Positions 595-48,009 of a stretch of 64,000 bases of DNA are shown in pieces. The notes below the pieces were generated by a model. It saw only the letters and a program-made list of their open reading frames with translations. It had not been told where the DNA came from and did no database searches. The translations under genes and the position numbers were made by a program. Within the stretch, counting starts at the first letter, position 1. The number at the start of each line of letters is the position of its first letter. The stretch is from Eutreptiella sp. 'Long Island Sound 2002' (Eukaryota; Euglenozoa; Euglenophyceae; Eutreptiales; Eutreptiaceae). Where the stretch lies: positions 101,933,367 to 101,997,366 of the forward strand of contig OZ038381.1 in the NCBI GenBank assembly GCA_964036045.1, written 5' to 3'.

Positions 595-755
595 TATTAC
601 TTTTACCCCTTGGTTGGGGGTTACCACAAAACCCACGTATACAGCACAAGTAAAAGAACAGCAAAAATATGGGTCATTGAAAAACAAACAAAACTACCCC
701 CAAAGCATATACGTGTATTTCCTTTTTTTATGAACCTGGCCGAAATTTCGGCCAG

Positions 756-1445: not shown

Positions 1446-1927
1446 GTGTGGCCGAAATTTCGGCCAGCATTTCCTGTTTCTGCCCATATGAGCAATTGTT
1501 TTCCCATCCAACACATTTTTCTTGGTTCCAGGGTTTCCACAAAACCCACCTATGCACCACGAGTAAAAGAGCAGCAAAGATACGGTTCGTTGAACAGCAA
1601 ACAAAACTACCCCCAGAGGATATACGTGTATTTCCTTTTTTTATGAACCTGGCCGAAATTTCGGCCAGCTTTTCCAAGAACATCAAAACACATGGTCTTA
1701 TTCACCGGACAGGCCCAAGCTGGCTGAAATTTCGGCCAGGTCCTTCAAAACTTCAAATAACGTCACCGAAATGGATACCTATGACGGTAGACATGCGCAA
1801 AGAGCACAGGTGCACTGACATTTGAAGAGTGTGTACAATGTACCACACTCAATGACAAGCAAATACTTGCCAACTAACAAATCCACACAGGCTATGGGAA
1901 AAACCAATAGCAGTACACCAAAAACAC

Positions 1928-2455
1928 TTAGGGACGCAGATGCTGGCCAAAATTTCGGCCATCCTTCGTACCGGCAAACAATATAACCCGTTGGAAATGG
2001 TAGTAGGCCGCAGGAGACATACGAATGACTTTATAAAAAAGAAGATCTTGGATGTAATCCACAGGCGGTGCGGCCTTGAGATCGTCATAGCGCCGCTGCA
2101 CACGATCCTCGGATAATTTACGGACGTGGCCAATGCTTCGGTCGTGGTCTATTACAATTTGGTCAAAGAAAACTTTTATTTTGGTTGTTGACGTGACCCA
2201 GTCGGATAATGTGATGGTGGTTGATGAATTTTTCATTGGTGGTGCCTTAGGCTTCCCTTGAAGTCCCTGTGTGCTTGCCTTATCCCCGTCCGGTTGATGG
2301 GCAGGTTGGGATTGCCCGTTTCCGGACGCAGCTTCAGCTAGAGGGGAAATAAGCACCTCCTGTGAATCCATTGCAGGCTCGGTCATGAAAAAGGATGCTA
2401 CAGCAGGGGATTTCATGGAAAGAGAAATCACAAAAGTGGCAATAACAAGCGCCAT
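1928..2455 (-). CDS. Hypothetical protein fragment in centre of inverted repeat
   Basis: This open frame of about 175 codons occupies the non-repeated centre of the palindrome array. I do not recognise the product. Visible features are a Ser/Thr/Pro-rich, low-complexity N-terminal half and a more ordinary C-terminal half with charged helices (residues about 85-165). Its last residues translate the palindromic repeat itself, so the 3' end is not genuine coding sequence unless an intron intervenes. It could be the remnant of a protein once encoded by the surrounding element, or a captured exon. No start context or splice sites could be confirmed. Confidence 0.25.
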   Translation of the reverse strand: MALVIATFVISLSMKSPAVASFFMTEPAMDSQEVLISPLAEAASGNGQSQPAHQPDGDKASTQGLQGKPKAPPMKNSSTTITLSDWVTSTTKIKVFFDQIVIDHDRSIGHVRKLSEDRVQRRYDDLKAAPPVDYIQDLLFYKVIRMSPAAYYHFQRVILFAGTKDGRNFGQHLRP

Positions 2456-2999
2456 TCAACCCAAAATGGCCCAAAATCGACGTCTTGACACAAATGATGG
2501 AATACCATAGCCGAAATTTCGGCCAGCCCTGCACTGGATGTGAAACCACTGTTCAAAACCGGGTTGCCGAGAAGCTGGTCGAAATTTCGGCCAGAAATGT
2601 GTGTCATTTGGAATCAGGGGTCCACATAAGGCAACTTTGGCCGAAGTTTCGGCCAGCAAAATGCAAAACAGAGAATGTACACACAAAACAGTGGCAATGC
2701 GTGGCACACCCCATACGAGCATGACAGTTATAGTAATACCAGAGGACATGTGAGAAGAAAGCAGCTTTATAGGAGTGTACGGTGTAATATTTATGCACAA
2801 CAAGAATTGCAAGTTGGCAGAAATTTCGGCCAGATGTTTTGGATGGGAAAACAATTGCTAATATGCGCAGAAATGGGACAAACTGACCGAAATTTCGGCC
2901 ACACCGGCAAAAAAGCGGGATACGAGTGTATGAGAGGTGATTAGACCAGAGAGCTGGGAGAAATTTCGGCCAGCCCTTAAGAAAATGAAAATGAGTATA

Positions 3000-3689
3000 G
3001 TCATTCAACACTAAACCAAAAAGCTGGCCGAAATTTGGGCCAGAAGCGTTAAAAGGTGTACATACACATGCATGTTTCCAATGGAACCAATGGAAAAGCT
3101 GGCCTCAATTTCGGCCAGCTTGCAAAACACCTCAAAGGTATCCATTTCCGTGACATTATTTCAAGTTTTGAAGGACCTGGCCGAAATTTCGGCCAGCTTG
3201 GGCCTGTCTGGTGAATACTACCATGTGTTTTGATTTTTTTGGCACAAACTGGCAAAAAAGCCGAATATGAGCGTATGAAAGGTGATTAGACCAGAGAGCT
3301 GGGAGAAATTTCGGCCAGCCCTGGAAACAATGAAAATGAGTATAGTCATTCAACGTTAAACCAAAAAGCTGGCCGAAATTTCGGCCAGAAACGTTAAAAG
3401 GTGGATATACACATGCATGTTTCCAATGGAACCAATGGAAAAGCTGGCCTCAATTTCGGCCAACTTCCAAAAAACCTCAAAGGTATCCATTTCTGTGACG
3501 TTATTTCAAGTTTTGAAGGACCTGGCCGAAATTTCGGCCAGCTAGGGCCTGTCTGGTGAATAAGACCATGTGTTTTGATGTTCTTGGAAAAGCTGGCCGA
3601 AATTTCGGCCAGGTTCATAAAAATAGGAAATACACGTATATCCTTTGCGGGTAGTTTTGTTTGCTGTTCAATGAACCGTATCTTTGCTG
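3000..3689. repeat. 345-bp tandem repeat, right arm (about two units, inverted)
   Basis: Palindromic sites at 3024, 3099 and 3177 recur at 3369, 3444 and 3522, again exactly 345 bp apart. The unit is the reverse complement of the left-arm unit. Confidence 0.85.
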
Positions 3690-4307
3690 TTCTTTCACTT
3701 GTGGTGTATAGGTCGGTTTTGTGGAACCCCTGGAACCAAGAAGAATGTGTTGGATGGGAAAACAATTGCTGATATGCGCAGAAAGAGGAAATACTGGCCG
3801 AAATTTCGGCCACACCGGCAAAAAAAAGCCGATTATGAGTGTATGAATGGTGATTAGACCAGAGAGCTGGGAGAAATTTCGGCCAGGCCTTAAAAAATAA
3901 AAATGAGTATAGTCATTCAACATGAATCCAAAAAGCTGGCCGAAATTTCGGCCAGAAGCGTTAAAAGGTGTATATACACATGGATGTTTCCAATGGAGCC
4001 CAAAAGCTGGCCTCAATTTCGGCCAGCTTCAAAAAAACCTCAAACATGATACACTAGATGAAGCGGATACCTAAGGCTAACACATCACCACCTATTTCAA
4101 TGGATGTCACATAACGCTGGTACCAACATTGCTCACATATGTCAAATAGCAAACTCAAACTAGAAATGTAGAATATTCTCACATTGTGCGTACATGGGGT
4201 CCTAGAGGGCGGGCAACTTGTGACGCCTAAGAAACCCCTTGACCCAATCCTTTCCCAAAAAGTGATGATTGTGCTCACAAGACCACACCCGTCCTCCGTC
4301 CGGTCTG

Positions 4308-4323
4308 GTAGCCAAAGGAATAT
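4308..4323 (+). repeat. 16-bp recurrent motif, copy 1
   Basis: GTAGCCAAAGGAATAT. Identical 16-mers occur at 13080-13095 (minus), 24771-24786 (plus) and 27276-27291 (minus) with unrelated flanks. The copies bracket the two piggyBac-type modules. Confidence 0.6.
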
Positions 4324-4375
4324 TCCTTTGTCTACGGAAGGATCATTTGTGACGAGAGACACATGAAATGTTCTA

Positions 4376-4535
4376 GGCGTTCTGGACGAATTTAAAAAAA
4401 GGTTCTACGACGCGCACAACGTCCGGAACGTGCAGAACGAATCGGTGTGGCTCCGGGGACACATGGAAAGCCACGCGTGGAATACGCGCGCAACGCGTAC
4501 GACGCGCACGGCGTGTTGTGGAACAGAGTACAACT
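4376..4535. repeat. Family-1 introner-like repeat downstream of transposase
   Basis: This segment carries the GGGGACA and ACGCGC-type blocks shared by the ~160-nt introns of the accessory gene at 6963-9829. It lies 3' of the transposase stop codon (4683), so if it is an intron it is in the 3' UTR. Confidence 0.4.
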
Positions 4536-4682
4536 GTTGGGGGGGGGGGGGGCGCGTCCTCACAGTTGGGTATCCAGCCTAGGCGGTTGTTCCACCAGGG
4601 TTCGCACTGGTCCCATGGGTAGGGATGGCAGAGGCTCCGCCCCCATGATCGTCTCGTTCCGCCACACCACGCCCATGACAGA

Positions 4683-6309
4683 CTACACGTCCTGGGCGTC
4701 CCCGAAGCACTTGATGTGCATGTGCTTCTCGCACGCTCCACACGCCCAACGCGTACTCCCGTTGCGGCAATGCGTGCACAAGAGGCGGCTCGCAAAGCGC
4801 TTCGGTGCATGCACCGTAGGGACCGCAGCGGTTGGCGTTGTGTTGTTGAACTCCGCGCCGCTAAAGTACCGCTGCTTGAGGATGTCCAATTGGAATTCCC
4901 ACATGGTGGTCTTGTCGTCCACGAATCCCAATGCCTTGGCGGTGGCAAAGGCATTGCCGGCCGCGTACCGCACCGTGAACGCACGCAAAGCGTGGCTCCA
5001 GGTCATTTGCCTCCCCAATTGGCGCATTTGCAGCGCCATTTGGTTGGCCCCATCTACGGCGCGGGAGAACTCCCGGTAGCACGCTACGACCGGAGGGAGA
5101 GGGTTCCCTCTCCGGTCTTTGGGCACCTCCTCCCCATACCAACAATTGGTAAGGAAGGGGACCAAGCATGGGGGTTTGTGCCCCACCTTCGGGTTATTGT
5201 ACACGGCAAGTTCATAGTTCTTGTCGGCCACAATTGCCCGTGCCATGTCGCCCTCCTGGGTAAGGGCGGCCGCCCTTGTAAGGCCGGCATCTCGCTTATC
5301 ACGCTTTGAAAGCATGAGAAACGGCCGACGTTGGGCCGCGAATTCCTCGGCAAGCCCATGACTTCCGAAGAAGCTGTCCGCACAAAGGACGGTGGACTGC
5401 GGGATCATCCTCGCCCATAGACGCATTATACCCTTAGCGTCGTACTTGCCGCAACATGACCCAAAGAGGCGGACCTTGCCGCGACGCCCCGTGTAGAGGT
5501 AGACGTCGAACACGTAACCCCCCCCATTGTCCGCGAGGACGTATAATTTGATGCCCGTAGAATGGGGCTTACGGGCAATGTATTGCCGTAGCCTCAGGCA
5601 TCGGCCACCACTGTGGGGAACGACAGCCTCGTCCCCACAAACCGCCCCTCCAATTTCCCATGCAGCGCTCCATGTTGCGTTGCACTCCTCAATCAAATCC
5701 GTGACATCGGTCCGTAATAACCGTTGTAGACGGTAGTAGATTTCCCGGGGGAGTAGGGACGCCATATACTTGTTGTACGCAAGGTGGCGCTTGTCCCAGA
5801 TCCCGTCTACCTGCATGGGACGTACCATTCCCAAGCAGATTAGGAAATCATTGTACCTGCACAGTGGGATGCAGGTTCTAGTGCTGTAGCACACGTACGA
5901 CACATTGCACATGTCGTACGCGTGTACAGTGCTGCCTCTACCATTGCCCCTGGGGCCTAGAGACACGTTCTGCGTGTCAAATGCGTCCTACAACGATCTC
6001 AACCTAGCGCGTCCTAAAGCGATTTCACTCTGCGGAAACGGCGTGCACGTCGCGCACCACATACTTTTCTACCCATGGGAGCAGGGATCGATGGTTGGTT
6101 TCCAGTAGGATTGCACGCTGCAGGCCACATATGGGTTGCAGCATATACTCCCAGATCTCATCTAGGGAATAGGCCCATAGTTTCCATCTTTCCGGTCGAA
6201 CACCATGCTCCAGATTTGCGGCACAGTCCGGGCGCGGTAGGGGTCCTGATTGGAGCTTGTCCAATGCTGGCATGTTGATGAGCTGTGCAGACCAGGAAGG
6301 GGGTGTCAT
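4683..6309 (-). CDS. piggyBac-like transposase, copy 1 (spliced)
   Basis: Two exons (6309-6065 and 5856-4683) join in frame to 472 residues across a 208-nt intron. The RNase H-like DDE_Tnp_1_7 fold is evident: a GDE motif (D157) leads into the block Arg-x-Arg-Gln-Tyr...Lys-Pro...Gly-Ile-Lys-Leu, followed by a Tyr-Thr-Gly strand. A second Asp (D242) sits in Ala-Asp-Ser-Phe-Phe, and a third (D350) in Ala-Val-Asp-Gly-Ala-Asn. The C-terminus carries a Cys-rich domain with CxxC-x8-CxxC-HxH-xx-C spacing (about 442-465), as piggyBac enzymes have for binding transposon ends. Splicing is supported by homology of the joined exon edge to the second copy at 20402-20813. The start is the first in-frame ATG of exon 1; a second ATG lies 12 codons later. 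It probably acts in the nucleus by cut-and-paste transposition. All key residues are present. Confidence 0.85.
5857..6064 (-). other. Intron of transposase copy 1 (family-1-like)
   Basis: GTATGTGG donor and CTGTGCAG acceptor, 208 nt, phase 2. Splicing joins AA|G to give Lys, followed by a block that aligns with transposase copy 2. It contains the CGTACGACATG/GTGTC-type blocks shared with family-1 introns. Confidence 0.75.
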
Positions 6310-6327
6310 GTAGGTGGGCTACATTAG

Positions 6328-6474
6328 CTGCAGAGCATGCATAACGCGTGTAACACTAAACCTGTCCCCGGAGCCCTACACGGAGACAACGCCCGCGACG
6401 CTCTGAACGCGCACAACGACCGTATCTGATGCCGGGGACAGGAGGAGAGACAGCATGCGCAACACGTAGAGCAC
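6328..6474 (-). other. Probable 5'-UTR intron of transposase copy 1 (family 1)
   Basis: A GTGCTC donor and GCTCTGCAG acceptor enclose about 147 nt with the CGTTGTCTCCG and TGTCCCCGG blocks typical of family 1. It ends 19 nt upstream of the transposase ATG. The donor choice is uncertain. Confidence 0.5.
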
Positions 6475-6962
6475 GAAGAACGCGGGGTCAGAACGTTTTT
6501 TCCGAGCAACAGTCCATGACAGTCATATATTGTCTGACGGTCAGAACTTGGGTACCCCGCCGCAGCCGCAAAGGCCAGACGGACTCTCGGGACCCTCTGC
6601 CGTCCACCACCCAAAAGCCCACAGCCAAGTAACGTACAAAAAGGGACCGGCGGTCAAACCTCACCACCATCATTCGTCCCCACGGCGGAACCACTTGTCC
6701 CTGCGCTCAGGGGGTGGCAAACACCACTGTACAGTAACAAACAATATATCAGGCAGCGTTAGCGCCGCCACCACTGTGGCGTCTCCTGCGACACTGCTGC
6801 CAGTGCGGGGTGCGTGTGCGGTGGCGGGGTGTGAAAAAAAAGAGGCTGGGACATCTGCCGTCCACGAGCCTCATCGGGGTCTAGCCACCCCGACCCATCC
6901 CCCCACCCCTCCCCTCCCCCCCACCCCTCCCCCCCTTCCCCTTCCCCCTCTGCCTCCGAGAA
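6475..6962. other. Intergenic spacer between the two module genes
   Basis: I see no gene. The stretch includes a strongly strand-biased C-rich tract (about 6898-6957 on the plus strand, hence G-rich downstream of the accessory gene's stop codon) and the transposase's presumed 5' leader. Confidence 0.45.
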
Positions 6963-9829
6963 CTAGGTGAACATGTCCACGTCGCTGGCATCCCACGCGT
7001 CGGCATCGTCCTCAGCAGCTGTCGAGAACATGCAGGACATGCAGCACATGCAGGCGGTCACCACGGACATGCCGGGGGACAGCGCGCGGAACGAATACGA
7101 CGCACGGGACACGAAGCGATGGCGCCAGGGACACAACCGGAGACAACGCGTGAAACGAATACGACGCGCGGCACGCACCTGTGACCTGGTTCGCCACTGT
7201 CCATCTTTGGTTCTTCCACCTCCGCCTGCTTGATCGGCAGGTCGTCCATCGGGCCGGCTTCCTCGGGCACCACAGGGGCATCTTGCGGCGACGGGGCGAC
7301 GGGGGCATCTTGGGGCGGTGGTGGCGGCGGGTGCAGCTGCTGTGGCTCGGGCGGCGGTGGTGGGGGGTGGTGCTGCTGGTAGTGTTGCGGCGGTGGTGGC
7401 GGGATGCGATCCGGGTCCCACTCCGCCTTCATACCCGGTTCTTCCCACTCCTCATCCTGGCACTGCGGCTGCTGCCCGTACATCTGGCCGTACCGCTGCC
7501 CATACTGCCCATACTGTTGCCCATACTGCGGCGGTTGGTACGGCACCGGGTACTGCGGGGGATATTGCGGCGGCGGCAGCTGCGGGGGCATGGCCTGTGA
7601 CATGGAAGGCATATTAAGCGCGGCGAACACAGTTATTGTCACCAGAGCCGAATCCGGAGACAGCACGCGGAACGTCTGGAGCGCGCAGAACAAACGAGGA
7701 GGCTGCCAGGGACAGTGCAAGAGACAGCGTGTATCACGTGCATCGCGCAAACAGCACCACACCTTGTGGCGGTTCCATGCTTGAAATTGTTGGTACTGTG
7801 CTTGCCGCACCAGAGTCCACGTCTTTTGCTCAGGCTCCTCAGTCAGCCCGTGGTCGGCCTCGAGCATGTACCTCAACAGTCCAGCTGCCCGCACGGTTCG
7901 GTTGTACTTCTGGATCAACTGGTCCAGATCCATGTCCATCACGTCCTTGACGTGGAAGCCTGAGACGTCCGACATCTCCGACCGCGGCCCTCGAGGCCGG
8001 CCTCCAGTGCCGAGGACTCCCCGAGCCTCTCGTCCAGAAAGGCTGGCCAGCGGGATACCCCCGGGTTTCGGATTGGGGTCCTCTGCCTCGAATTCCCCGG
8101 TCTCCCCGCAACCACTAACGCAATCGCCAACACGACGGAGAATACTCTTTGCAGTGCCCTCTGCCCCGGCGGTTGGGTACAGCGTCTGGAAATGCTCCAC
8201 TGCCTTCGTGACCGAACTGCAGTTCTTCGTTCCACATGACAGCACAGCTTGGATCGTGCGCGGCTCAGCGCGGCTCAGCATGGTTGCGGCGAGGCCCAGA
8301 TCTTGACGCACTGCAGGACACGAAACACGCGCTCAACGACATGCATGTCTCCAGGGACACATGCGGAGACGACGTGCGCAGCGATTTGGACGCGCGGAAC
8401 ACGAGCGACGGTCCCCGGGGACGCAAGGAAAGCCTCCATGCACAGCAGTCTGAACGTTGTGCACACGCATACCTTCAGCACCCGTTGCCGCCTTCAGCTG
8501 TGCGCAGCAGTTCTTGTAATGGTGCACGAACGTCCCCAGCGAGTACCCGTACTCGTTGTTGAAGAAGTTCTTCAGGATCTCGATGGATCGGGCATGGTGC
8601 GCCGATCCGGTGAACTTCTCCTGCCTTGTCTGCCCGGTGGGGAGCTTGCTTGGCGGGCGGCCATGGGTCTCCACCAGGAAAGGGGGCCTCGCCTTCTCCT
8701 TCCCCTTCTCCAGCGCCTCCGTCTTTGCCGCCTTCAAGACCCCCTTCTGCTGCAGTGGGCTCTTCTCGCCACTCTCGTCGCTCTCACTGCTGCTTGAGCT
8801 GCCGCTGCTGCTACTCGTACTGCTCTTGCTGGTGCCACTCTTGGAGCTGCTGCTGCTTGCACTTCCCAATGGTGACAGTGGTTCCTGCGGCACTTCCAGG
8901 TGTGTGGAGCGTGGGGCACGCCGAGGCTGCGAAGCCATCCGCGCTGGCTCCGCCTTGATCTCCTTGACCTCCTCCTCGAAAGCATCGTCGTCGTCTTCTG
9001 ACACGATCCTCTTCACCTTCCCCTTTGGGTCCTTTTTCTTTGGCTTTGCCTCTTCTTTCCGCTCCTCCCGCTTCTCTTCCTTCCTTCCTTCCGGCTTGCC
9101 CTTGGTCTTGTCTTCGGCCTTGTGCTTCTTCTTGTCCTTTTTCTCCTTCTTATGCTTTTTGTCCCCCTGCAGGACACAAAGAACGCGTAAAAAACGATTA
9201 ATGTCGCCAAGGACACTCCGAGAGACAACGCGCGCGACGCGCAAAACACATAGGCCAGTTCAGACAGGCTCCAGGGACTGATACAAAGACAACACCACGG
9301 ACGTCCGGAACATGCAGAACATGTACCTTTTCGGGTTCATCGGGGATAAAACCCCAGAATGATCCAGCATGGATCTTGTCGACGCTGATGGACACGGTGC
9401 CCTGCAAAGAAGCGCGGGGGGCAAGGAGGAGGTGTTGTAAGGCATCATAATCAAACACTCCGAGCCGGTAGATAACCGAAGTATACCTGTGCTCTGGTGC
9501 CCTCGATCTTGCGGCCCTTCTCCTTTGTTGTACGGACCATGTACGTGCAGGACTGCGTCAGCGTCAGAACCCAATGATTGCTCTTCGTCTTTTTATCATA
9601 CACTTCCTCCATGCCGGAGACCCACCCGGCATGGTACCCGGCTGCAAAGAATGGGTGAAATCACCAGCGGCACACGAAGAGGCAACACGTGGAACTCGAG
9701 CAACTCGAACACTGCACACATACATGTTTGCTGCTTCACTTGAAAAACCACCGCCGCATTATGGTCCTTCGTGACGTCGCAGCACGACATGGGGTCGCAC
9801 TCGGTGAGGTGGGTGTGGGGTAGCTGGTA
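6963..9829 (-). CDS. Accessory protein of piggyBac-type module, copy 1 (7 visible exons)
   Basis: Exons 9829-9724, 9641-9487, 9401-9327, 9166-8473, 8310-7763, 7594-7186 and 7018-6963 join in one frame (680 residues, 5' end unresolved). I do not recognise the family. Order: a β-rich N-terminal domain with VVF, GYHAGWVSGME and VLTLT segments (to about residue 110); a very basic/acidic Lys-Glu linker; a Ser-rich tract; a helical region around NEYGYSLGTF; then a Pro/Gln/Tyr-rich low-complexity tail with PQY repeats and a short acidic C-terminus. The N-terminal domain and the mid-protein helical part align by eye with the protein at 21337-23974. Composition suggests a nuclear, disordered-rich protein. 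It lies 0.65 kb upstream of the transposase on the same strand. Four of its six introns are introner-like. Function unknown. Confidence 0.75.
7019..7185 (-). other. Family-1 introner-like intron (167 nt)
   Basis: GTCACAGG donor and CTCGACAG acceptor, phase 1. It shares the TTGTCTCCGG...TGTCCCTGGCG core and repeated CGTCGTATTCG blocks with the other family-1 introns. Confidence 0.75.
7595..7762 (-). other. Family-1 introner-like intron (168 nt)
   Basis: GTGTGGTG donor and ATGTCACAG acceptor, phase 0. The internal blocks TGTCCCTGG and GCTGTCTCCGG match its sister introns. Confidence 0.8.
8311..8472 (-). other. Family-1 introner-like intron (162 nt)
   Basis: GTATGCG donor and TGTCCTGCAG acceptor, phase 1. 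The core CGTCTCCGCATGTGTCCCTGG is shared with the neighbouring introns. Confidence 0.85.
9167..9326 (-). other. Family-1 introner-like intron (160 nt)
   Basis: GTACATG donor and TGTCCTGCAG acceptor, phase 0. The acceptor-side 10-mer is identical to that of the 8311-8472 intron, and the GTTGTCTC...GTGTCCTTGGCGAC core is shared. Confidence 0.85.
9402..9486 (-). other. Ordinary short intron of accessory gene (85 nt)
   Basis: GTATACTT donor and TTTGCAG acceptor, phase 0. It lacks the family-1 blocks. The 82-nt intron at 9642-9723 (GTATGTG...TTTGCAG, phase 1) is similar in kind. Confidence 0.75.
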
Positions 9830-13097: not shown

Positions 13098-13359
13098 GTA
13101 CGCATTTCACAAAGTCCGGTCTTCCGGTCTGACCGGTCTTCCCGTTTCGCGCAGTTTATTCTAGCAAAACTTCTACTTTACGCCAGTTTACGCAGTTTAT
13201 GCAGTTTATGCAGACCGAGCAGTTTATGCAGTTCGTGCGGGAACACGGAAGACCGGTCTTGTCCGGTCCGCCCGGTCTGGTCTGGTCTCCGTACCAACTG
13301 CATAAAACCCCTTAAACCGAGCGGTCCGATCAGTTTGCGCAGTTCATTTCACTTCATAG
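13098..13359 (+). other. Putative family-2 (ACCGGTC) introner-like intron
   Basis: A GTACGC donor after CTACAG and a CTTCATAG acceptor bound 262 nt with several ACCGGTC/GACCGGTC motifs and the GCAGTTTATGCAG phrases seen in family-2 introns, here in the opposite orientation to those at 21-23 kb. Confidence 0.5.
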
Positions 13360-13567: not shown

Positions 13568-14511
13568 CTACTGATGGTACTTCGCAAAGCAATCAACGTG
13601 CAGCGAAACGCCACAAGCTCGGCATTTGTACATCGATGTGCCGCCCCGACAGCACACGCATGTACCTCGCTTGGCACGGATAGGGAGGTGCTTTGCCTGC
13701 ACCTCAATTGTTCGGGCTGGAAAGATGTACCGCATGAGACGCCACTGCCCAATGTGCATGGTTTCCCCCGGGGCACAAAGTTTCAACGCTTTGCACGAGG
13801 TAAAAGCGTTGGTGGATGCCATGCGGAGCAACATGCCATTCATGGCCTTCCACCAGTTTGGGAACCGCCGCTCCTCCCGATGCTGCAAGCACAGCTGGTT
13901 GCACACATCGACCCCGGGTGCAAATGTGCGGTAAGTGGCCACAATGCCGGGTAGGCGATACCTACGTTTCCGCCATACATGGGGGCCATGGTGGCAGTTG
14001 GTGACCAAGGGCACGGCACGTGCGGCCTTCTTGCCCACCTTTGGGCTTTTGAAAATGCTCAAGGCATACCCATCCTCCTTGTGAAACCACTGTGTTCACC
14101 TTCCCAGGGTGCAGCCCCTTGACCCCCTGCTCAACGAGATCCGCTGATTTGGGGATCAGCATCAAGAAGGGTCGAGAATGTGCCGCTAGAGACCTAGCTG
14201 TACCATGGGAACCAAAGTAGGTGTCCGCCACCAACACCCGGTTGCTGGGTGCCACATCATGCCATAGCTGCACAATCTCCACGGGGGTGTAATGGCCAGC
14301 ATAGGTGGTTGGAGGTGGGGGGTTGTCACGAGGCATCGCACCACGGTACAAATAAACATGCCAAATGTACCGGTCCTGAGCATCACACAGCAGATACAAT
14401 TTTACCCCCGTGGTATGGGGTTTCCGAGGGATAAATTGTCTAAATAGGAATAGGCCCTTGTGTGGGACGATAGATTCATCGCCACACACAATGTCACCGA
14501 ATACCCACCCA
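13568..14511 (-). pseudogene. piggyBac-like transposase copy 2, C-terminal part
   Basis: The frames 14511-13962 and 14062-13568 give the catalytic core and Cys-rich end of a piggyBac transposase, joined by a single-base frameshift near 14062-14080 (GCCTTGAGCATT region). The core begins GDE, continues to Ala-Asp-Thr-Tyr-Phe and Pro-Gly-Val-Asp-Val, so all three expected Asp residues survive. The last 35 residues hold CxxC-type pairs (CVCC, KCRAC) and HVDC. The protein is clearly homologous to the copy at 4683-6309. Its N-terminal half lies 5.9 kb away at 20402-20813, beyond the inserted transposon. The frameshift plus the insertion make this a broken gene. Confidence 0.85.
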
Positions 14512-14547
14512 TGGGATGCAGCGTTCTAGGGCGTGGTGCGGAACCCC
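14512..14547 (+). repeat. Left terminal inverted repeat (36 bp)
   Basis: Exact reverse complement of 20366-20401. Inside it the sequence diverges at a C-run. Confidence 0.9.
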
Positions 14548-14695
14548 CCCAATTTTGGGTGTTGTTAATATGGTTGGAACCCGGAATTTCACATGTTACA
14601 TGGGTGCACTATGATGCAACAATGTGCCTTCCATGTTTCGTTTGCTCGATACTGCCCGTTTTGCACTTTTTGCGATTTGATCTTTGTGTGCTATA

Positions 14696-14850
14696 ACTAG
14701 TTAGAACGGGGTTAGAACGGGGTTAGAGCACTAGTTATCGCGTGGGTTATCGCGCGATAACCTAGTTATCGCGGGGGTTATCGCGGGGGTTATCGCGCGA
14801 TAACTAGTTATCGCGCGAGTTATCGCGTAGGTTATCGCGCTTCATTTTAT
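14696..14850. repeat. GTTATCGC / GTTAGAAC motif cluster, left
   Basis: Closely spaced GTTATCGC octamers in both orientations, including the 16-bp palindrome GTTATCGCGCGATAAC, preceded by GTTAGAAC/GTTAGAGC motifs. Subterminal in the element, so a likely transposase-binding array. Confidence 0.8.
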
Positions 14851-14984
14851 GTTTCCCCTTTTCGCTGTAGCTCTCTAAGCCTTCGTATTCTTTGATAAGG
14901 GCCCTTGCTGCTGCCCACGCTTGGTGCGAGCACCATCAAAAGCTCCTTGGGGTCCGTCGCCTTGGCGGTCCTGAGGGGTTTACG

Positions 14985-17192
14985 ATGGGTGATGCCAATG
15001 TGAGGCGCACTATGGCGACCCGCTTTGAACATGGTGTGGACTTTGGACTCCTTGTCCATAAGTCCCCCTTCATGGCGGACAAGCGAGACCCCCTGGTTCT
15101 CAGCAACTACATCTTCGAGTTGCTAGAGGTAAATCCAGGGGTTGCTGGATTTTTGATCCAGCTTCATCCTGAGGACGTGGACACCGTGGTGGAGTCCGTC
15201 ACCGCTCATGCCGAGAAGGGTGCGGGGACGAAGACGACCCTCTATGTGGGTCAGGAGGAGGAGGATGAGGAAGTGGAGGAGGAGGAGGAGGATGCGGGGG
15301 GGGTGGGGGCTGGGGGGAGGAAAGAGAAGCCCCACGACCCCCTCATGATTAGTGTCCAGAAGGTAAGGGTGAGACCTGGTAAGGGGAAGGGGAAGTCGGA
15401 TGGTTGGTTCCCCCAACCCCTCACCCACAACACCCGCCGGGTATGCACTGACGACCCCGAAAACAAGCTCCCCATGCACTCCCTTTGCCCCACAAGGGAG
15501 TGGGAGCGTGAGTGGTATGGGGTCACCACTCCCAACATTATTTCGGGGCAGGGGGTGATTCTTTTTCCATTTGGGGCAACACCCCCCCTTATTGGGGAGG
15601 CGGAGGAGGTGGTTGCCGCCGAGCCCTTGGGGGCCTTTAATAGGGACCCCAATGACCTTGTGCTCACGGTGGGGGGAAAGCTGGTGGTCAACCACCTCCT
15701 GGAACACGATTTTTTGAGTGAGGTTCAGCTGCAAAGTCTTTTGGATGATTTGGATAGGGTGCCTCTCTCAGAGAAGGCACCCATTTTCAATGAGAACCCC
15801 CCCATTGTCGGCAGGCCCCAAGATTCTGGGACCTGCCGCACATTGTATGGCAACTATGGGGGTGCCAACCACCACAAGCACAACCCCCACAAGCTCCATG
15901 ATCTGCCAGTCCTCGAAAGGGTGGCAGATCGTGTGCTTGAGACCGTGAAGAAACCTGTGGTGGAAGGGGTCTGATGGAGTTGCACCATCCTTGACATGGC
16001 CGAAATTTCGAGCTATGACCACACCCCCCAGCACCTCCATCGCGACGCCCCCCCCTACACCATTCCTGAAGGCACATTGATTGTCAATTGCCTTATTATG
16101 CTAACCCATAATCATGAGGAGGAGGATGGGTCACATTTTCTTTTTGTGCCCTCCAGCAGTTCGGGGTTCCCTGACCCTTGGGTGGAGAGGGCTGTGCCAT
16201 TCAAGAGGGGCACTGCCTTTTTTTTTAATGCCCTTGATGTCCACAAGGGGTCGGGGATTCCCAAGGCCTCCCCCATGGGGGTAAGGGACCCCCGCCTCAT
16301 GGCATTTTTTGCCATTGAGCTTACCCAGGGGGGCAATCTTCGATTCCCCAACCTGCACGTGACGCAGTCCATTAAAAGGCCCCAGCTGGGGGCACCTGGT
16401 GGCCGGGTGGCCAGGACAGTCCAGTGTGATGGGGCGGTTAGGTGTAGGGGGAAGGTGGTAGCCAATTGCTACGGATGCAATCGGCTGATTTTGTGCACCG
16501 CCCACAAAGATGGCCTTTGTGTGCCATGCCAGGAGGGGGAGGAGGTGGAGGGGGGGGAGGAGGAGGAGGTGGTGGTGGACCCCAATGGGGTCAGCATTGA
16601 GCAATCTGCTCAGTGCTTGCTCCCGGTGGGAACAACCACCGGGCATTTTTTGTTGTCGGGGTGGGGGATTGGGAGGGAGGTGATTGCCCCCCTCACTAAT
16701 GAGGAGGCGGGGGCGGTCGCAGGCCACCCCGATCAGTGCCCCTTGGCCAAGGTGTGCCATGGGGAGGCACTGCCCTGGCCCACCTTGCAAGGGCATGTTG
16801 GGATTAAGGTGCCGGCGGGCACCATTTTGGTGGTGAGGAGGGGGGTATATGGGGGAGTGGCAAGGGTGGCCGTAGAGGTGGAGGGGCAGGCCCAGGTGGT
16901 GGAGTGGCGGGAGGTGGGGGAGTATGCGGCCGTCACGGACTTCGTGTGGCTGCGGAGGCTGGGCCTGGTGCTGGACGACGCCAAGAAGGAGGGCCAAGGC
17001 ATGTGTCCGTGTCACCAGGAGGTGGAGGGGCAGCGGAGGAGGGGGGATGACCTCCAACAGCGCTTGGGGGTGGCTGAGGCGCAGGTGCGCAGCCTCACCT
17101 CCACCCTCAGTGCCTCCTTCACCGCCCAGCAGGGGCTGGCGCCGCAAGGGTTGCAGAGTCAGGGTAGCGGGAGTAGGAGTGGGAGCCAATGA
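14985..17192 (+). CDS. 2-oxoglutarate/Fe(II) dioxygenase-like transposon protein
   Basis: The frame is open from 14892; the first ATG is 14985. One in-frame TGA (15972-15974) divides it, but the same frame resumes at once, so it is either two genes, a readthrough site or a nonsense mutation. N-terminal part: unknown domain, then an acidic Glu run. After the TGA: MAEISSYDH leads into HLHRD, the HxD iron motif, about 23 residues past the stop. A DGSHF strand follows, then Phe-Phe-Asn-Ala-Leu-Asp-Val-His (distal His) and RLMAFFAIEL with the likely 2OG-binding Arg, as in double-stranded β-helix dioxygenases. Next comes a Cys-rich segment with CxxC pairs (CYGC, CVPC), probably zinc-binding. The C-terminus is low-complexity. 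Such enzymes oxidise nucleic-acid bases or protein side chains; the substrate here is unknown. Confidence 0.65.
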
Positions 17193-17830
17193 CTCGTGGG
17201 TTTGCTAAGGGGGTTGCCCAAGGGCATTTTTCGTGGGGAGGAGCGATATGGGGCCCAAGGGGACATGTGCCACTTCGGCCTCGTGGGAAGTGGAAACCCC
17301 AACCCCTCTAATTTTAGGGCGACCCACATGGCCGCTGCTACCCTCAGGCCTGCCCTCACCCCCTTGGTTGCAGACCTCAATGGGTATTGCACCTCCAATG
17401 CTCCACCATGGTTCACATGGTGTAGCATCCAAATTGTTCGCCCCCAAGGGACGGACACCATGGGCCTCCACTCCCATTTGCGGGATGGGGCGCCCATGGC
17501 GCTTATTGTGTGTGTGGGGTCTTTCACGGGGGGGGTGAGTTTTGGGTGGAGAGTGGTGGCCTGCTGAATCCCTCCATGAGGGAAAAAAAGCGGCACACCC
17601 GTGTGTGCAAGGGTAGGGCGGTGGAGGGTTGGGCATGCACCGCCACCCCCCAAGCCCCGGTGTTGTTCAACACCAGGGCACTACACGCTCCATTGCCATG
17701 GGAGGGCGAGCGATGGAGCGTGATTTTTTATAGTGCGGGGGGGGTTCTGCACTGCACGCCTGTGTGGCGGCAGCAGCTGGTGTCCATGGGTTTTAGGTTG
17801 CCCAATGCTTCCTCTAACCCCTCCAGCTAG
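17193..17830 (+). pseudogene. TET/JBP-like dioxygenase with homopolymer frameshift
   Basis: This continues the previous gene's frame directly after a TGA (17190-17192), then shifts at a run of eight G (about 17528-17535) into the frame that ends at 17830. Before the shift, WFTWCSIQI, an HSHLRDG segment where the iron-binding HxD should lie, and IVCVGSFTGG match the core of TET/JBP-type base dioxygenases. After it, GEFWVE, then ALHAPLP (distal His), EGERWSVIFY (2OG-contacting Arg) and a closing MGFRLP strand follow in the expected order. One extra G would join the frames without loss, so the break may be slippage or an assembly error. The exact HxD spacing is unusual, and I cannot tell if the iron site is intact. 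TET/JBP enzymes oxidise 5-methylpyrimidines in DNA. Confidence 0.65.
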
Positions 17831-18105
17831 TGTAATTTGTGATTCGATTATTGTTCACTATTTCTATTTTTTCTGCTTTGGTGGGATGCCTTTGCCTTTG
17901 CCATTTGGGATGCCCACCGTGGTTTGTCATTGTGTACTCGGAGGAGGGGCAACTAGCCCGGAACATGTCCATTTGACTGATTTGAATTTGTGATTGTGGC
18001 GCCATATACCCCGTGCCTGCACATTGTTGACATCTCCAAGGTTTCCTGGGTGCAAAATCAACGTTTGTGAAGGTTTTAGGGTGCCCAACGCTTGCTCTAA
18101 CCCCT

Positions 18106-18292
18106 CCAGTTAGTGCGCGATAACCCCTGCTCTAACTAGTTATCGCGGGGGTTATCGCGCGATAACTGGGTGCTCTAACTAGTTATCGCGGGGGGTTATC
18201 GCGCTCTAACTAGTTATCGCGGGGGGTTATCGCGGGGGTTATCGCGCGATAACCTAGTTATCGCGGGGGTTATCGCGTGGGTTATCGCGTGT
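18106..18292. repeat. GTTATCGC motif cluster, internal
   Basis: Same motifs as at 14696-14850, placed between the dioxygenase genes and the transposase gene. It could serve as a shared regulatory region or mark the fusion point of two elements. Confidence 0.8.
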
Positions 18293-18353
18293 GTTTTTTG
18301 GGCCCTTGCTTCAAAACCCTCCCTCATTTCGTGCCCAGGTCCTCTTATTCTTC

Positions 18354-20014
18354 ATGGATAGTGCTGTCAATGAGGCCCTGCGGGCTCTCAACACAGCTAA
18401 CCTCCGGTGGTACACCGATCTGCAGTGCCCCAAGGCCCGGCGGCGGCGTTTGAAGGCGGTTCAGCGGCTGGTGCGAGTTCTATTGGGTGACCCAAACGTT
18501 GTGTGTGGCACCAACACCAAAGGCGAAGTTTGTTTAAGTGGTGGGGCGTGCACTGCCCTGTCTGGCCCACTTGGCGGCCATCTTGCATTAACAGCTCAGG
18601 AGCATGAGGCCCTAAGCATGCTACGCATGGCATGCAGCATGCATCTCTCCCAACGGGCCCTTTTGCGAATGCCCCGCCGTTGCACACAACGGGACCTAAG
18701 GACCGTTCGGCAACGGATCATGCCCTACTTTCCCCAAACAACCATTGTAAAGTCTACCACAGGCCGCAATAGGGCAGCTGCCCATGTGCCTTTGCAATCA
18801 ATTGTGCAAAATGCAATATCTATGGCCAGAGTTATCGGGAAACCCCCCCCTAGTGGCGTTGCCATTGTTGTTATTTCAGTTGATGCGACTTCCTTGTGGA
18901 AGGCATCCTCTACCCGTGCGGATGTATGGGTTAATGTATGGGGGGGGGCAAAATATGCTTCGAAGGTGAAGCTATGGGCCTCATGCTTTTGCATGGATGG
19001 CGGGGATGAACAGGCTTTTTTGAGAAGCCTCGACATCTCCGCCAACCTCAACCAAGAGGTGAGGGATGTGGAAGAGGACGTTGTCCTCTTTCAAAACCAA
19101 TTTTTGACTTGCACTGTCATTTTGACAGGGGATGGGAAGGGGATGCAAGCAATGGGGGGGGCTGGGTCTAAGTGTTGGTTGTGCAAAGACCCCAATGGGA
19201 TTGTTGAGCAAAGGGGGGTGGAGTCCACCTCAAGATGGGGGGCATTCTTGAGAAGTGTGACCCCCGATAGGCGGCCGGGGGACTACCAACATGCAGCATG
19301 CCGCATCCTAAACGGCATTGCAAAGCGCATTGAGACCACCCTTCAGGCCCTCCCCCCTGGTACCCCTAGTAAGGCCCAAGCTCTTGCAGCTTTGCAGGCC
19401 TTCAAACAAGCCCTCAAGGATGAGACGTCAGGCATCCCTCTGAGGGAACGCCTCCCTTCGGCCTCAAGGGCCACAGAAAAAAATTTCGATCTAACAAGCA
19501 CCAAAGTTTTCCTAACCCCCCCCCCCCCTTCCAAAGGCAATTTGTGGATTGCCTCAAAGAGCATGTCCCCACAGTGAGGACCCCTGGGGGACCTATGTTA
19601 TGGGTTGTTGTGCATGTCATGGTGAAATGCATTGAGGGTTTGTACGAGCTTTGGAGGGTGAGGGAGTTGTACACTCTAACCCAAGTGGAACGCCACCGTG
19701 CGTTGATCACAAAATTTTCAAAAGCGTGGGGAGACTCAGGTTGGTCCCCCACCAGGTGGATCCATTGGTGCTTGGCACATTCCACCTTTTTTGCCGAGAA
19801 ATGGAGGAACATTTTTCAGTTTTCCTCCATCCCAACGGAGTATCGGCATGGGCCTTACAAAAGGAGGCTCAAAAATTGTTTTAAGGGTTGGTCCTTGGTG
19901 AGGCCAAGTGTGTCCCTCCGCCACATGCACCATTGCATGTCCATGAACGCCCTGGAGCAAGGGCTTTTGGGACTGGAGGCAGCCAAGGCCTCAGACATTG
20001 ATGACTTTGTATGA
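18354..20014 (+). pseudogene. DDE-type transposase of the 5.9-kb element (frameshift at C-run)
   Basis: The first 389 or so codons (18354 to about 19520) and the last 160 (to TGA at 20012-20014) are in different frames, which meet at a run of about 12 C near 19516-19528. RNase H-like features: VVISVDATSLW (D177) as first Asp, VILTGDGKG (D260) as second, followed by an insertion with CWLC (274-277), probably zinc-binding as in several transposases with inserted domains. Near the C-terminus NALEQGLLGLE may supply the acidic third residue. The arrangement recalls RAG1/Transib- or KDZ-type enzymes, but I cannot decide the superfamily by eye. The start is the ATG just after the internal motif cluster; the frame is open from 18291. 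Confidence 0.6.
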
Positions 20015-20082
20015 AAAACCACCATACATGCTTTGTGCCAAGTGTTTTGTGTTGTTTGTCCTAGGGAGGGAGGGAGGAGGGG

Positions 20083-20215
20083 TGCGCGATAACTACACGC
20101 GATAACTACGCGATAACTGAGTTATCGCGCGATAACTAGCGCGATAACTAGTTAGAGCAAGGTGCTCTAACTGCGTTCTAACTCTGTTCTAACTGTGCTC
20201 TAACTCTTTGACCCC
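20083..20215. repeat. GTTATCGC / GTTAGAAC motif cluster, right
   Basis: Same motifs as the left cluster, mostly in opposite orientation, about 150 bp from the right TIR. Confidence 0.8.
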
Positions 20216-20365
20216 CCCCCCCAAAAAAAAAACCACCCCTACAATGAGGGTTATGGGGGGAAAGAAAGGGGATGGGGGGTTTTTGAGGGTGCTGAATCCA
20301 TTTTTTTAGGTGGTTTGCCCCAAAATTGAGGGTAGGTGGGTGTTCCACAAATTGCGTTCTAACTA

Positions 20366-20401
20366 GGGGTTCCGCACCACGCCCTAGAACGCTGCATCCC
20401 A
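20366..20401 (-). repeat. Right terminal inverted repeat (36 bp)
   Basis: Exact reverse complement of 14512-14547. It abuts the split piggyBac coding sequence. Confidence 0.9.
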
Positions 20402-20813
20402 CATTCTGCCATTGTTCGGTGCACAGTTCAATCAGGGCATCCACATCCGGATCCGCGAAGCGCTGCAACTTGTAGAACGCCCCACGGTCCGGGAAGAGGT
20501 ACTCCATGTAGGTGTTGTAGTACATGCTATCCCTATCCCATAGGTCATCAATGCGGCGGGGTTGTAGCATTCCGAGACCTAGTCGGAAAAGGATGTAGCG
20601 GGGAAGCAAGGGGACCAAGTCGGCATGCCCCTTGGCGCGGAGGCAAATGTCCATGCACTCCATGATGGGCCGCATCATGTACTCATACACCGTGACCGGT
20701 GTGTCTGCGGCGCATGTACCCTCCAATAGGCTTGTGCCTCGTGCAACACCTTTGGTGAAGTCATACAAAGCCTCATCAAGATCCAAGGGACGTGGTTCCC
20801 AATCCGATTGCAT
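20402..20813 (-). pseudogene. piggyBac-like transposase copy 2, N-terminal part
   Basis: It starts at an ATG 10 nt after a family-2 intron acceptor (20824) and runs about 137 codons to the TIR of the inserted element. The segment from Val-Tyr-Glu-Tyr-Met through Leu-Gln-Arg aligns with residues about 50-130 of transposase copy 1, including the spliced junction of that gene, which here is uninterrupted. The end at Glu-Gln-Trp-Gln-Asn continues after the insertion at Gly-Trp-Val-Phe-Gly on the far side (14511 downward). Removing the element with a 2-bp duplication keeps the frame. Confidence 0.8.
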
Positions 20814-20823
20814 AGTGATTTGA

Positions 20824-21003
20824 CTGCAGAAGAGGGAAAAGGAAATTTGCTGCGCAAACTGCACAAACTGCACGAACTTGCCGGACCGCGCGGTTCGTTT
20901 CAATTTACGAGAAGACCGGTACAGACCGGTCCGGACCGGTCCTTGGACAAACTGCATCAACTCATCTAAACTGTCCGGTCCGAGCAGTTTACGCAGTTTA
21001 CGC
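20824..21003 (-). other. Family-2 intron in transposase copy 2 leader (donor uncertain)
   Basis: The acceptor CTTCTGCAG ends at 20824, just before the transposase ATG. The segment contains the ACCGGTC cluster and GCGCGGTCCGG block of family 2. The 5' boundary is approximate. Confidence 0.5.
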
Positions 21004-21336
21004 TGTTTGTTGATTTTTCCTATTCTTTACCTTTTTGTCCCCCCATTGGCTACTTTCTATTTTTATTTCTATTTCTATTTCTTTGGGACGGGGGGGGGGG
21101 GGGATGGAGGGGCAGGGGGTGGCCTCTTCCTCACAAACTGAGAAGGTCGCATGCACTGGGCGTTGTTGCAATTCGTCGAACAAACAACGTGAGACGGTCC
21201 CAATGTTTGAAGAAAGTATTGGAGAAGCGAACACCACCACCGGCATGGCTCACCACGGCAACACCATGGAAAAGCGGTCCGGGGCGCTTTAGGCTGTGCC
21301 CGGGACATCAGAGCCGAGGCCAGCATCACCACCACC

Positions 21337-23974
21337 CTAACCCGGCCTGGAATTATCATCGGGCTTTTTCTTAGCATCCAACTTAGCTTGTAGCTGGGCC
21401 TCCATTTGCCTTTGCTTCTGCAGGAACATGGGGTTGACCTTGGCGGACCCATTTTTCGTGTACCCGCGCACAGAGGCAACTTGCAGCTGCAACCCTTGAG
21501 TGCTTGTGTCCTCGGCCTGGGGAAAAATGCAACGAACTGCACGAACTGCACGAACTGCGCGAAACACCCGGACCGCGCGGTTCGTTTAGGTTTACGAGAA
21601 CACCGGTACAGACCGGTCCGGACCGGTCCTTGAACAAACCGCGTAAAACGATCTAAACGGGCTGGTCCGATCATTTCGAGCAGTTTATGCAGTTGATGCA
21701 GTTCACACCTGTGGCTGGGGCCCGGGGTCGATTTCCTCGTTTTCCTCAACTTCCTCTTCTTGCAGGCCTGGCTGGCCTTCTTCTTCTTCTGTGAGGGCTT
21801 CTTCCTTCTCCTCTTCTTTTACCTCCGTCTTTCCTCCATTGCCTGAGCTGGCGGCTCGCACCTGCGGTGTTATGTTGTACAACGTAATGTTGGCCCATGA
21901 AATGAAAACCACAACCCCGCAACATGGCAACAAACCTTCGCCTTCTTCAAGGCGTCCAACTCATCTTGCAGCCGTTGCTGCTCCCGCTTCATGCGCTCCA
22001 ACTCCTCTGCCCGGTCGCGCATCAGCCGGTCCGCCTCCTCGGCCGCCTCGCGCGCCTCTTCCTCCTGGCGCGCCCGCTCCGCCTCCTGCCTCTCTCTTTC
22101 GGCCTGTGAGACAAACAACGAAATGGGTCAAACTGCACAAACTGCACGAAACGATCGGACCGGACAGTTCATTTCACTTGGCACATAGACCGGTCTGGAC
22201 CGGTCTTGTACAAACAGCATAAACCGATCGAACCGATCGGACCGCGCAGTTCGTTTCAGTTGACACAAAGACCGGTCTGGACCGGTCTTCGAACAAACAG
22301 CGCGAACTGCGACAAACTGCAAAAACGGACCTCTTCCAAGGCCCATTGATGCTTTGCTTCCTCCATTCTTTCCCATTGCCGGGCAAACCACGGGATCGAA
22401 TGGATCTCCGCCAAAAGCTCGTCGGTGGTACGGGTGCTCTCCAACGGTTCCTCCCAGCTGGCATCCGGCAGCTCCCCTTGACGGACCTATGGGCATAAAG
22501 GGTTAAGACAACGAACGGAACAAGACAAACCGAAGGGGTGGGGGGAACAATTGTTGACCTGTGTAATCTCATGCTCCGTCCGACAAAGCTCACGGCGCAG
22601 CAACTTGTACCGGTTCCGCACGTCCGCTGTCGACAGATCCTCCAGCGGGGGCGTGAGGAGGTCAAGCAACCGCTTCGCTGGGGAGTGATGGGAACGGGGG
22701 GCGCCGGTTGCGCCGGTCACGGGGTTGCGACGGGGGTTGGATCGAAGTGAGCGGGAGGGGCTGGAGTCGCGCGGCGGGGAGTAGGGGTCGTACTCGGGTT
22801 CCCGGGGTTCTTGCTTCACCCCACAGCCTCGGCACTTCGCGATGTTGCGCAAGAGGTCCTCTGCAGAAAAACAACACAAAAGGGTGTAAACGGGTCGAAC
22901 CGGTCGGACCGCGCAGTTTAGCGCATTTTATGCAGTTTGTTCAAAGACCGGTCCAAACCGGTGCGGTCCGGTCTTTACACGAAGTGAAATGAACGGTTCG
23001 GTCTGGTCGGTTCGATCAGTTCGTGTCATTATATGCAGTGGACGCAGAAAGTGCAAACCTGAATAATCCTTGTACTTGTAGGCTTCTGTGCGGAGCGTAG
23101 ACACCACTTTCGTCGGCGCGGGGATGTACTCGCTCCGCAGAAAGAAGTGCCACCTCAGCAGGTTGTTGGGGACCTCCAGCAGCAATCTCAGCGCGGCTGC
23201 CAATTGCTTCTTTGCGTGGACGTTGTTCCTGAGGCAAAGCTTGACATGGGTCCCCACGGAGTCTATCGAAAACCCGTATTGTTCCAACCCATTGTTGACC
23301 CGAACCACCTCCCTGTTGGTGAGGGTGTCGTCGTCCTCCTGTGACCCTTGCGCCTTCCGCCGCCTTTTGGGATCCCGCCTCCCATGGGGGTCGTCCTCCT
23401 CGCTATCCGCCTCCTGGAAGAACTCTTGTGCCAAACTTTTCTTGCGCCTACCCTTCCCCTTGTCCTGTTTCTTTGGTTTCTCCTCCTCTTCGCTCAACGG
23501 TTCCTCATCTACAATCCCCTCCTCGCCCTCGGGCTCGTCATCCCCCTCTTCATCCTCCTCCTCCTCATCACCATCCTCCTCATCACCTTCGTCCACATCC
23601 AAAGGCCGTTTGGACCTCTCTGCCCGGCTCCCGGATGCCCGCTGTTGCACCCTCTCCTTGGGGGTCTTTGCCTTGGCACCTCCCTTCTCGATCAACCAAC
23701 TCCCCACAACCGTCTCAACGTCAAACACCACATCCCCTTTGTTTTGTTGCCGCTTGACGTTTCCATTTTTGTCTTCGGTGTATTCCTTGGTGTTTGTGAG
23801 TGTCACCTTCCCTTTTTCCACCGTGGACACCAACCCACTGAAACGGGCTCCGTGTGAGCCCTTCTTCAAGAAAACGACCCATTGCCCTCTCTCGATGTTC
23901 TTGAAGGCCTGGGGTACCACCTTATCATCCTTGGTGGCATGGGGGAGGGCTTGACCGGGACCTTCCACAGGCAT
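21337..23974 (-). CDS. Accessory protein of piggyBac-type module, copy 2 (6 exons, 624 aa)
   Basis: Exons 23974-23059, 22860-22559, 22486-22331, 22103-21936, 21861-21709 and 21516-21337 join in perfect frame to a TAG stop. The family is unknown to me. Order: a β-rich domain (residues about 20-95) with WVVFLKKG, FSGLVSTVEKG, VTLTN and VGSWLIE; a long Glu/Asp-rich linker with basic patches of nuclear-signal type; a helical domain (about 215-300) around EQYGFSIDSVG; a CxxC pair (CRGC) near 315; an SR/Pro stretch; a strongly charged coiled coil encoded mostly by exon 4 (RQEEEAREA, RMKREQQRL); and an acidic, then Gln/Lys-rich tail. The β domain and helical domain align with the copy-1 protein at 6963-9829. 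Gene position and strand relative to the transposase are the same in both modules. It may be a DNA- or transposase-binding partner; this is inference. Confidence 0.8.
21517..21708 (-). other. Family-2 introner-like intron (192 nt)
   Basis: GTGTGAAC donor and TTTCCCCAG acceptor, phase 0, with ACCGGTCCGGACCGGTCTG in its middle and repeated GTGCAGTTC near the acceptor. Confidence 0.85.
22104..22330 (-). other. Family-2 introner-like intron (227 nt)
   Basis: GTCCGTTT donor and TTGTCTCACAG acceptor, phase 0. It contains two tandem copies of the family-2 core (GACCGGTCCAGACCGGTCT), so it may be a double insertion. Confidence 0.85.
22487..22558 (-). other. Ordinary short intron of accessory gene copy 2 (72 nt)
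   Basis: GTCAACAA donor and GCCCATAG acceptor, phase 0, without repeat content. The 74-nt intron at 21862-21935 (GTTTGTTG...ACCGCAG) is the other plain intron. Confidence 0.75.
22861..23058 (-). other. Family-2 introner-like intron (198 nt)
   Basis: GTTTGCAC donor and TTTTCTGCAG acceptor, phase 1, with ACCGGTTTGGACCGGTCTT and GCGCGGTCCGACCGG blocks. Confidence 0.85.
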
Positions 23975-47889: not shown

Positions 47890-48009
47890 CAACACCAACC
47901 CCACCACTACCCACACCACCACCACCAGCGGCCCCACCACCACCACTACCAACACCACCCCCACCACTACCACTGCCCACTGCCCTACCCCACCAGGCCA
48001 CAACCCCCC

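Follow-up and report, generated by a model that had tools for sequence, protein, structure and literature searches.

The question of how a transposon doses and aims a TET/JBP-type enzyme that it carries is raised by an element in a 64,000-nucleotide stretch of DNA (hereafter the window) from the euglenophycean Eutreptiella sp. 'Long Island Sound 2002' (contig OZ038381.1, positions 101,933,367 to 101,997,366). The original prediction, made from the letters of the window, described a DNA transposon with two different 2-oxoglutarate-Fe(II) (2OG-Fe(II)) dioxygenase domains in one reading frame and a separate DDE transposase, inserted into a piggyBac gene. Comparison with further copies points to a more elaborate arrangement: a first transcription unit, in which a dioxygenase exon (A) would be spliced to a coiled-coil exon (B) and programmed readthrough of a UGA codon would add a TET/JBP-like domain (T), the products acting on repeat tracts of the element, and a second unit encoding the transposase (X). 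On balance, we consider this arrangement probable.

The element is a cut-and-paste DNA transposon, and the copy in the window is damaged. Its inverted ends are 100% complementary over 36 nucleotides, just as originally described, and its termini read TGGGATGC..GCATCCCA. When the flanks are fused across a single copy of the CA target-site duplication (TSD), they give an uninterrupted piggyBac reading (LCTEQWQNGWVFGDIVCGDESIVPHKG), in agreement with the split piggyBac gene recognized earlier. Thus, the terminal inverted repeats (TIRs), the TSDs and the piggyBac reading restored at the empty site identify it as a bona fide DNA transposon within a piggyBac gene. A search of 2.28 Gb of genome gave 1,196 left-end candidates, of which 40 were scored and 20 fetched; in the resulting sample of 20 copies and the window, the right end was not found in the stretch in six, and a matching 2-bp TSD is found in 14 of the 15 two-ended copies (c23 being the exception). 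Seven of these 15 have a full-length size of 7,097-7,127 bp, and TIR-bounded copies were found to enclose the same genes. The abundance of the element is further reflected in 432 genome-wide matches to a pattern for the B/T junction and in protein clusters with 275 members for X, 235 for T, and 220 and 491 for A. The homologous-protein matches (41 for X, 106 for T and 58 for A) look like copies from the same or a near genome. Searches with the transposase and T confirmed no viral relatives of either, and the degenerate pattern FTGG.LWVE had 0 matches in viral contigs.

Both transcription units are broken in the window copy. The start codon of the dioxygenase gene is lost (AGG at 14898-14900 for the first ATG), an in-frame TGA lies at 15972-15974 where all 13 other matched copies have GGA, T is frameshifted near 17521 by a run of eight G (six in 9/9 other matched copies), and the transposase frame is broken near 19520 by a poly-C run longer than in other copies. 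Such readings of lesion sites, like those of junctions and loci below, used words or endings favouring the expected form, with up to five substitutions allowed at lesion sites, family-1 junctions and family-2 loci; the 432-match pattern search alone left the stop codon free. The run-on frame from the first domain towards the second results from a deletion of 1,268 bp near 17019. The earlier claim of two dioxygenase domains in one frame does not hold for the window copy, where the frame is closed by the TGA codons at 15972-15974 and 17190-17192 and by the poly-G shift, whereas the predicted splicing and readthrough would indeed unite both domains. The TGA at 15972 was also considered as a conserved recoding site and rejected on account of the GGA in the other copies.

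The UGA between B and T behaves differently. It is present in all ten junctions read in family 1, to which the window belongs, and in 98 of the 100 matches listed out of the 432 genome-wide ones (the other two being one TGT and one TGG). Two family-1-like protein records (P0054, P0059) have Arg at this position, indicating that the stop can be lost. Five families were distinguished from 136 places found with the T of family 2, and the T of the four other families is 33, 31, 28 and 31% identical to that of the window family. The UGA recurs in 19/19 loci of family 2 and in the loci read of family 3 (two), family 4 (two) and family 5 (one), and it is this conservation between families that counts. 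Four of the five families keep T in the reading frame of B; in family 5 an unrelated insertion separates the UGA from T. The first AUG past the UGA falls at codon 25, 98, 6 and 105 in families 1-4, respectively, so that T begins without an AUG in families 2 and 4. The codons that follow the UGA are CUA G or CUC in family 1, mostly CUC CUA in family 2, CAG GAU in family 3, AGG CAU in family 4 and CUC CCA in family 5. The commonest family-1 context, UGA CUA G, equals the human high-readthrough motif, in which UGA CUA is the consensus, with G next best (PMC4359377, as far as excerpted). In family 2 the 30 codons after the UGA hold 10 synonymous and 11 nonsynonymous variants, a ratio of 0.34 from small numbers. 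A reading of TGA as a Trp sense codon is not supported: A and X of the full copy c11 use TGG 10 and 15 times, have no internal TGA and end in TGA. As a separate observation, in loci of two different families a short inverted-repeat element, seemingly the same one, separates the stop of B from T (L020, at about 3300-3570 with ends near CCCACAGTAAGGGGG, and L063).

Upstream of the UGA, A and B appear, from their predicted splice sites, to be two exons joined by a phase-0 intron. A ends in CHQ, followed by a donor CAG|GT with the word GTGTGA (GTGAGA in c21), and B starts after a pyrimidine-rich CAG/TAG with the words (A/V)TI.Q(L/W)PR in families 1-4 (VTVVQWPR in family 2). Donor and acceptor are both found in 12 of the 14 family-1 copies examined, c16 and c19 being without the exact donor word, and occur together in families 1, 2 and 3, in all cases in phase 0. 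The intron measures 242, 244 and 236 bp in c11, c20 and f3a (230-244 bp within family 1), lengths that leave remainders of 2, 1 and 2 on division by three; the constant phase in three families despite these lengths counts in favour of a splice fusion.

Exon A is 708 residues long in full copies and fully open in 6 of 19 matching family-1 stretches (c11, c15, c17, c22, c24, c27). The HRD...DVH...R stretch named in the original prediction is present in the translation, and a complete HxD...H...R set (HRD, VHRG, R466) is conserved between families 1 and 3 at 31% identity, which makes a convincing case for one 2OG-Fe(II)-type domain in the element. The profile searches that had been proposed gave matches for this first domain that stay below the curated cut-off (PhyH, E 0.0097, 16.6 of 22 bits; 2OG-FeII_Oxy_3, E 0.076, 14.4 of 27 bits). 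A structure model of A, from an alignment of 23 of the 58 homologue matches, has a mean predicted local distance difference test score (pLDDT) of 30.4, too low to be usable, and PDB sequence searches with A and X returned nothing or one unrelated chain. The ratios of nonsynonymous to synonymous variants among family-1 copies, from small numbers, are 0.42 for A and 0.30 for X, which is consistent with selection on both.

T is TET/JBP-like by motif. The words on which this second domain had been proposed (VGSFTGG/GEFWVE, ALHAPLP, EGERWSVIFY) are all present, in a frame that is shifted in the window, and T is open over the whole or nearly the whole length in 8 of the 11 family-1 copies that carry it. 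In the alignment of the five families the D, the distal H and G-x-F-x-G-G are invariant, and the R is found in four of the five rows, with S in family 5 and variation in single copies. TET/JBP enzymes have an iron motif of the form HxD; that of T reads H-x-H-x-x-D in families 1-4 and H-Q-D in family 5. The G-x-F-x-G-G-x-(L/F)-(W/C), the distal H and, outside family 5, the R that follows are in keeping with TET/JBP enzymes. Departures from HxD do occur, since the fungal PE type has HxE (Kojima 2025, PMC12730594; cited from excerpts of the article throughout).

These pieces would fit together as follows. The first unit would consist of exon A, an intron of about 240 bp, the coiled-coil exon B, a leaky UGA and T; most ribosomes would halt at the UGA, yielding A-B, while a minority would read through, yielding A-B-T. 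A-B might bind the repeat tracts found next to each gene, while the rarer A-B-T product would carry the TET-like domain to these tracts, oxidizing methylated bases there; this could keep promoters and transposase-binding sites active, so that the element stays expressed or transposable. More tentatively, readthrough conserved in four to five diverged families may supply small amounts of a double-dioxygenase protein aimed at the element's own CpG-dense tracts, namely a dosage-controlled, self-targeted methylation eraser. The palindromes of the element include GTTATCGCGCGATAAC, and the family-1 intron, which holds one of the four tracts, consists largely of CpG-rich palindromic repeats. In c11 the ratio of observed to expected CpG is 1.45-1.96 in the tracts versus 0.40-0.49 in A, B, T and X. 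The genome has 55 matches to the PF00145 cytosine-5 methyltransferase domain, many of them partial and six near full length. Separately, many partial PF00145 matches (profile about 2-168) recur across contigs with almost equal scores, which would fit a methyltransferase gene that is itself multi-copy or mobile.

Several observations weigh against this arrangement. Neither Pfam nor NCBIfam has a match for T, none of its five family members matches a Pfam family at E<=10, PDB sequence searches with it gave only unrelated weak chains, the best at E 0.096, and its AlphaFold2 model, from an alignment of 11 of the 106 homologue matches, has a mean pLDDT of 30.1, too low to be usable. The A of family 3 matched no Pfam family, and no splice donor was found in family 4. 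As for the UGA, its count in family 1 is weak evidence because the copies are young; the family-4 context UGA AGG is, to our knowledge, no recognized strong readthrough context; no consistent RNA fold was found 3' of the UGA (z of -0.17, 1.93, -1.84 and 0.65); and the variant ratios, all from small numbers, are 0.82 for T codons 31-195 and 1.0 for the B tail in family 2 and near neutral in family 1 (T 0.77, B 0.70). As for the tracts, the intron of family 2 lacks a high CpG density (4.5 CpG per 100), a few windows within A, B and X reach 9-11 CpG per 100 versus 9-16 in the tracts, the excess of CpG transitions among copies is mild (0.009 versus 0.005) with G to C at CpG raised as well, and the binding of the tracts by B is purely conjectural.

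The missing profile match, the pLDDT of T and the HxH/HxxD motif of families 1-4 are why we keep to the label 'TET/JBP-like'. They also leave room for the view, a serious minority possibility and compatible with readthrough, that T has the TET/JBP fold without being a canonical Fe(II)/2OG enzyme: it would be a DNA- or chromatin-binding module, and A, with its complete HxD...H...R, the sole active oxygenase, possibly on histones. The lack of R in family 5, the one family with HxD spacing, points the same way, whereas the invariant D, downstream H and G-x-F-x-G-G fit an active site with changed spacing.

Readthrough itself appears the most likely route by which T would be joined to A-B, alternative splicing being its main rival. 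By that account, which we judge unlikely, a second small intron in the 3' end of B would remove the UGA and join B to T. The A-B-T gene seemingly has one true intron already; with one representative taken per family, all five have an AG no more than 8 nucleotides past the UGA, and in families 2-4 pyrimidines make up 60-67% of the 30 nucleotides before it. Yet they make up just 23% and 40% of that stretch in the representatives of families 1 and 5, versus 71-93% at the A-B acceptors, and the purine-rich sequence before the family-1 UGA weakens the case; moreover, two of the ten family-1 junctions have CTCG for CTAG and hence lack that AG, and splicing would not require T to be in frame with unspliced B, which it is in four of the five families. 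That T is instead a separate or decaying gene, reached by internal initiation or reinitiation or left as a relic past a stop fixed before the families spread, is less probable still: its variant ratios near neutrality among young copies and the family-3 AUG six codons past the UGA suit this account, but its open frame and motifs are kept across families whose T is 28-33% identical to that of the window family, it is (nearly) fully open in most family-1 copies (8/11), and families 2 and 4 offer no AUG for about 100 codons.

The second unit would encode the transposase X, 552 residues long, in which D177, D260, CW(L/I)C at 274-277, H(4)H (HWCLAH) and IP(T/S)E align in two full sequences, a third, partial sequence covering the D, D and C(2)C part. 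The D...D...CWLC...E stretches of the original prediction are present, and the follow-up of their class leads to the CACTA/Mirage/Chapaev/Transib (CMCT) kind: such transposases are defined by C(2)C and H(3-4)H between the second D and the last E (PMC12730594). By this motif set, and with a TSD of 2 bp (in 14 of 15 copies) that lies within the 2-5 bp of the group, X is a CMCT transposase; the CA..TG termini usual in most CMCT elements are replaced here by the termini given above. Kyakuja-Dileera-Zisupton (KDZ) transposases are likewise associated with TET/JBP, and membership in that group is rejected: its reported TSDs measure 7-8 bp (PMC12730594) versus 2 bp here, and X has C(2)C and H(4)H.

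Table 1. Features of the element and its insertion site, in window coordinates.
Feature	Position	Strand	Remark
PiggyBac transposase gene, interrupted, 3' half	13568..14509	-	PF13843 (DDE_Tnp_1_7), E 9.8e-16
2-bp TSD, CA	14510..14511; second copy 20402-20403		flank comparison
Left TIR, 36 bp	14512..14547	+	identical in the 20 fetched copies, themselves chosen by left end
CpG-rich palindromic repeat tract 1, GTTATCGCG / CGCGATAAC units	14699..14836		upstream of gene A; CpG observed/expected 1.96 in c11
Predicted exon A, 2OG-Fe(II)-type dioxygenase with Cys-rich stretch	14898..17018	+	start lost (AGG), in-frame TGA 15972
HRD iron-binding motif of exon A	16038..16046	+	kept in a family at 31% identity
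Deletion point	17018..17019		1,268 bp of c11 missing (intron with tract 2, most of exon B); comparison with c11
Predicted exon B, residual 3' end, coiled-coil region	17019..17189	+	comparison with full copies
In-frame UGA, B/T boundary	17190..17192	+	UGA CUC in the window and one other; UGA CUA G in 8/10 family-1 junctions
T, TET/JBP-like domain	17193..17830	+	frameshifted in the window by poly-G
CpG-rich repeat tract 3	18110..18291		upstream of transposase
Predicted transposase X (D, D, C(2)C, H(4)H, E)	18354..20014	+	frameshifted in the window by longer poly-C run
CpG-rich repeat tract 4	20083..20200		repeat and CpG analysis
Right TIR, 36 bp	20366..20401	-	present in 15/21 stretches including the window; one mismatch in c26
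PiggyBac transposase gene, interrupted, 5' half	20404..20960	-	continuous reading once flanks are joined; alone without Pfam match

Besides the element, the window holds a second piggyBac-type transposase open reading frame (4686-5966, reverse strand; PF13843, E 3.5e-17) and two regions resembling retrotransposons, both matching RVT_1 and integrase-core profiles (38827-43350 on the reverse and 54783-59583 on the forward strand). The words GACCGGTC and GCAGTT make up interspersed imperfect repeats, inverted as well as direct, at 20842-22290 and 13100-13350, and positions 48001-52000 are strongly skewed in composition (GC 0.676, AT skew 0.539). Elsewhere in the genome, family-3 and family-2 elements lie in or beside the first 355-377 bp of a family-1 element (L018, on the reverse strand, and L020), as nested insertions would; the ends of the family-3 element fall at about 529-7562 of the joined stretch.

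Among known systems, maize En/Spm also has arrays of subterminal repeats, and one of its own proteins is said to restore activity to a methylated promoter. We know of no dioxygenase in En/Spm, and the repeats of the present element also lie within an intron and between genes. The fungal TET+ DNA transposons similarly place a TET/JBP-type dioxygenase beside a transposase, including the CMCT types EnSpm, ESTA and Plavaka with 2-3-bp TSDs, and an anti-silencing role has been proposed for them (Kojima 2025, PMC12730594). Relative to their description there, the present element differs in carrying another, different domain of the 2OG-Fe(II) type, in the predicted splicing of A to B and in the UGA that is conserved ahead of T; its termini are TGGGATGC and not CA..TG, and its iron motif in four families is HxH/HxxD and not HxD or HxE. 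A precedent for the recoding is presented by human LDHB and AQP4, where a UGA followed by CUA G likewise allows an in-frame extension that adds a functional part, in cellular genes as opposed to a transposon (PMC4359377). Listings of the open-access literature yielded no DNA transposon with conserved stop-codon readthrough, none in which a single transcript carries two different oxygenase domains and none with a conserved UGA before a TET-like domain; judged by titles and the opening of abstracts, they included no article about readthrough in DNA transposons. With TET+ CMCT transposons already known in fungi (PMC12730594), this suggests that the second dioxygenase and the conserved UGA are what is new.

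The gene set of the element suggests a built-in counter to silencing by DNA methylation. If the proposed readthrough is true, the stop codon conserved between scaffold and TET-like module would directly control the dosage, and the CpG-dense repeats would be the target at which the enzyme is aimed.

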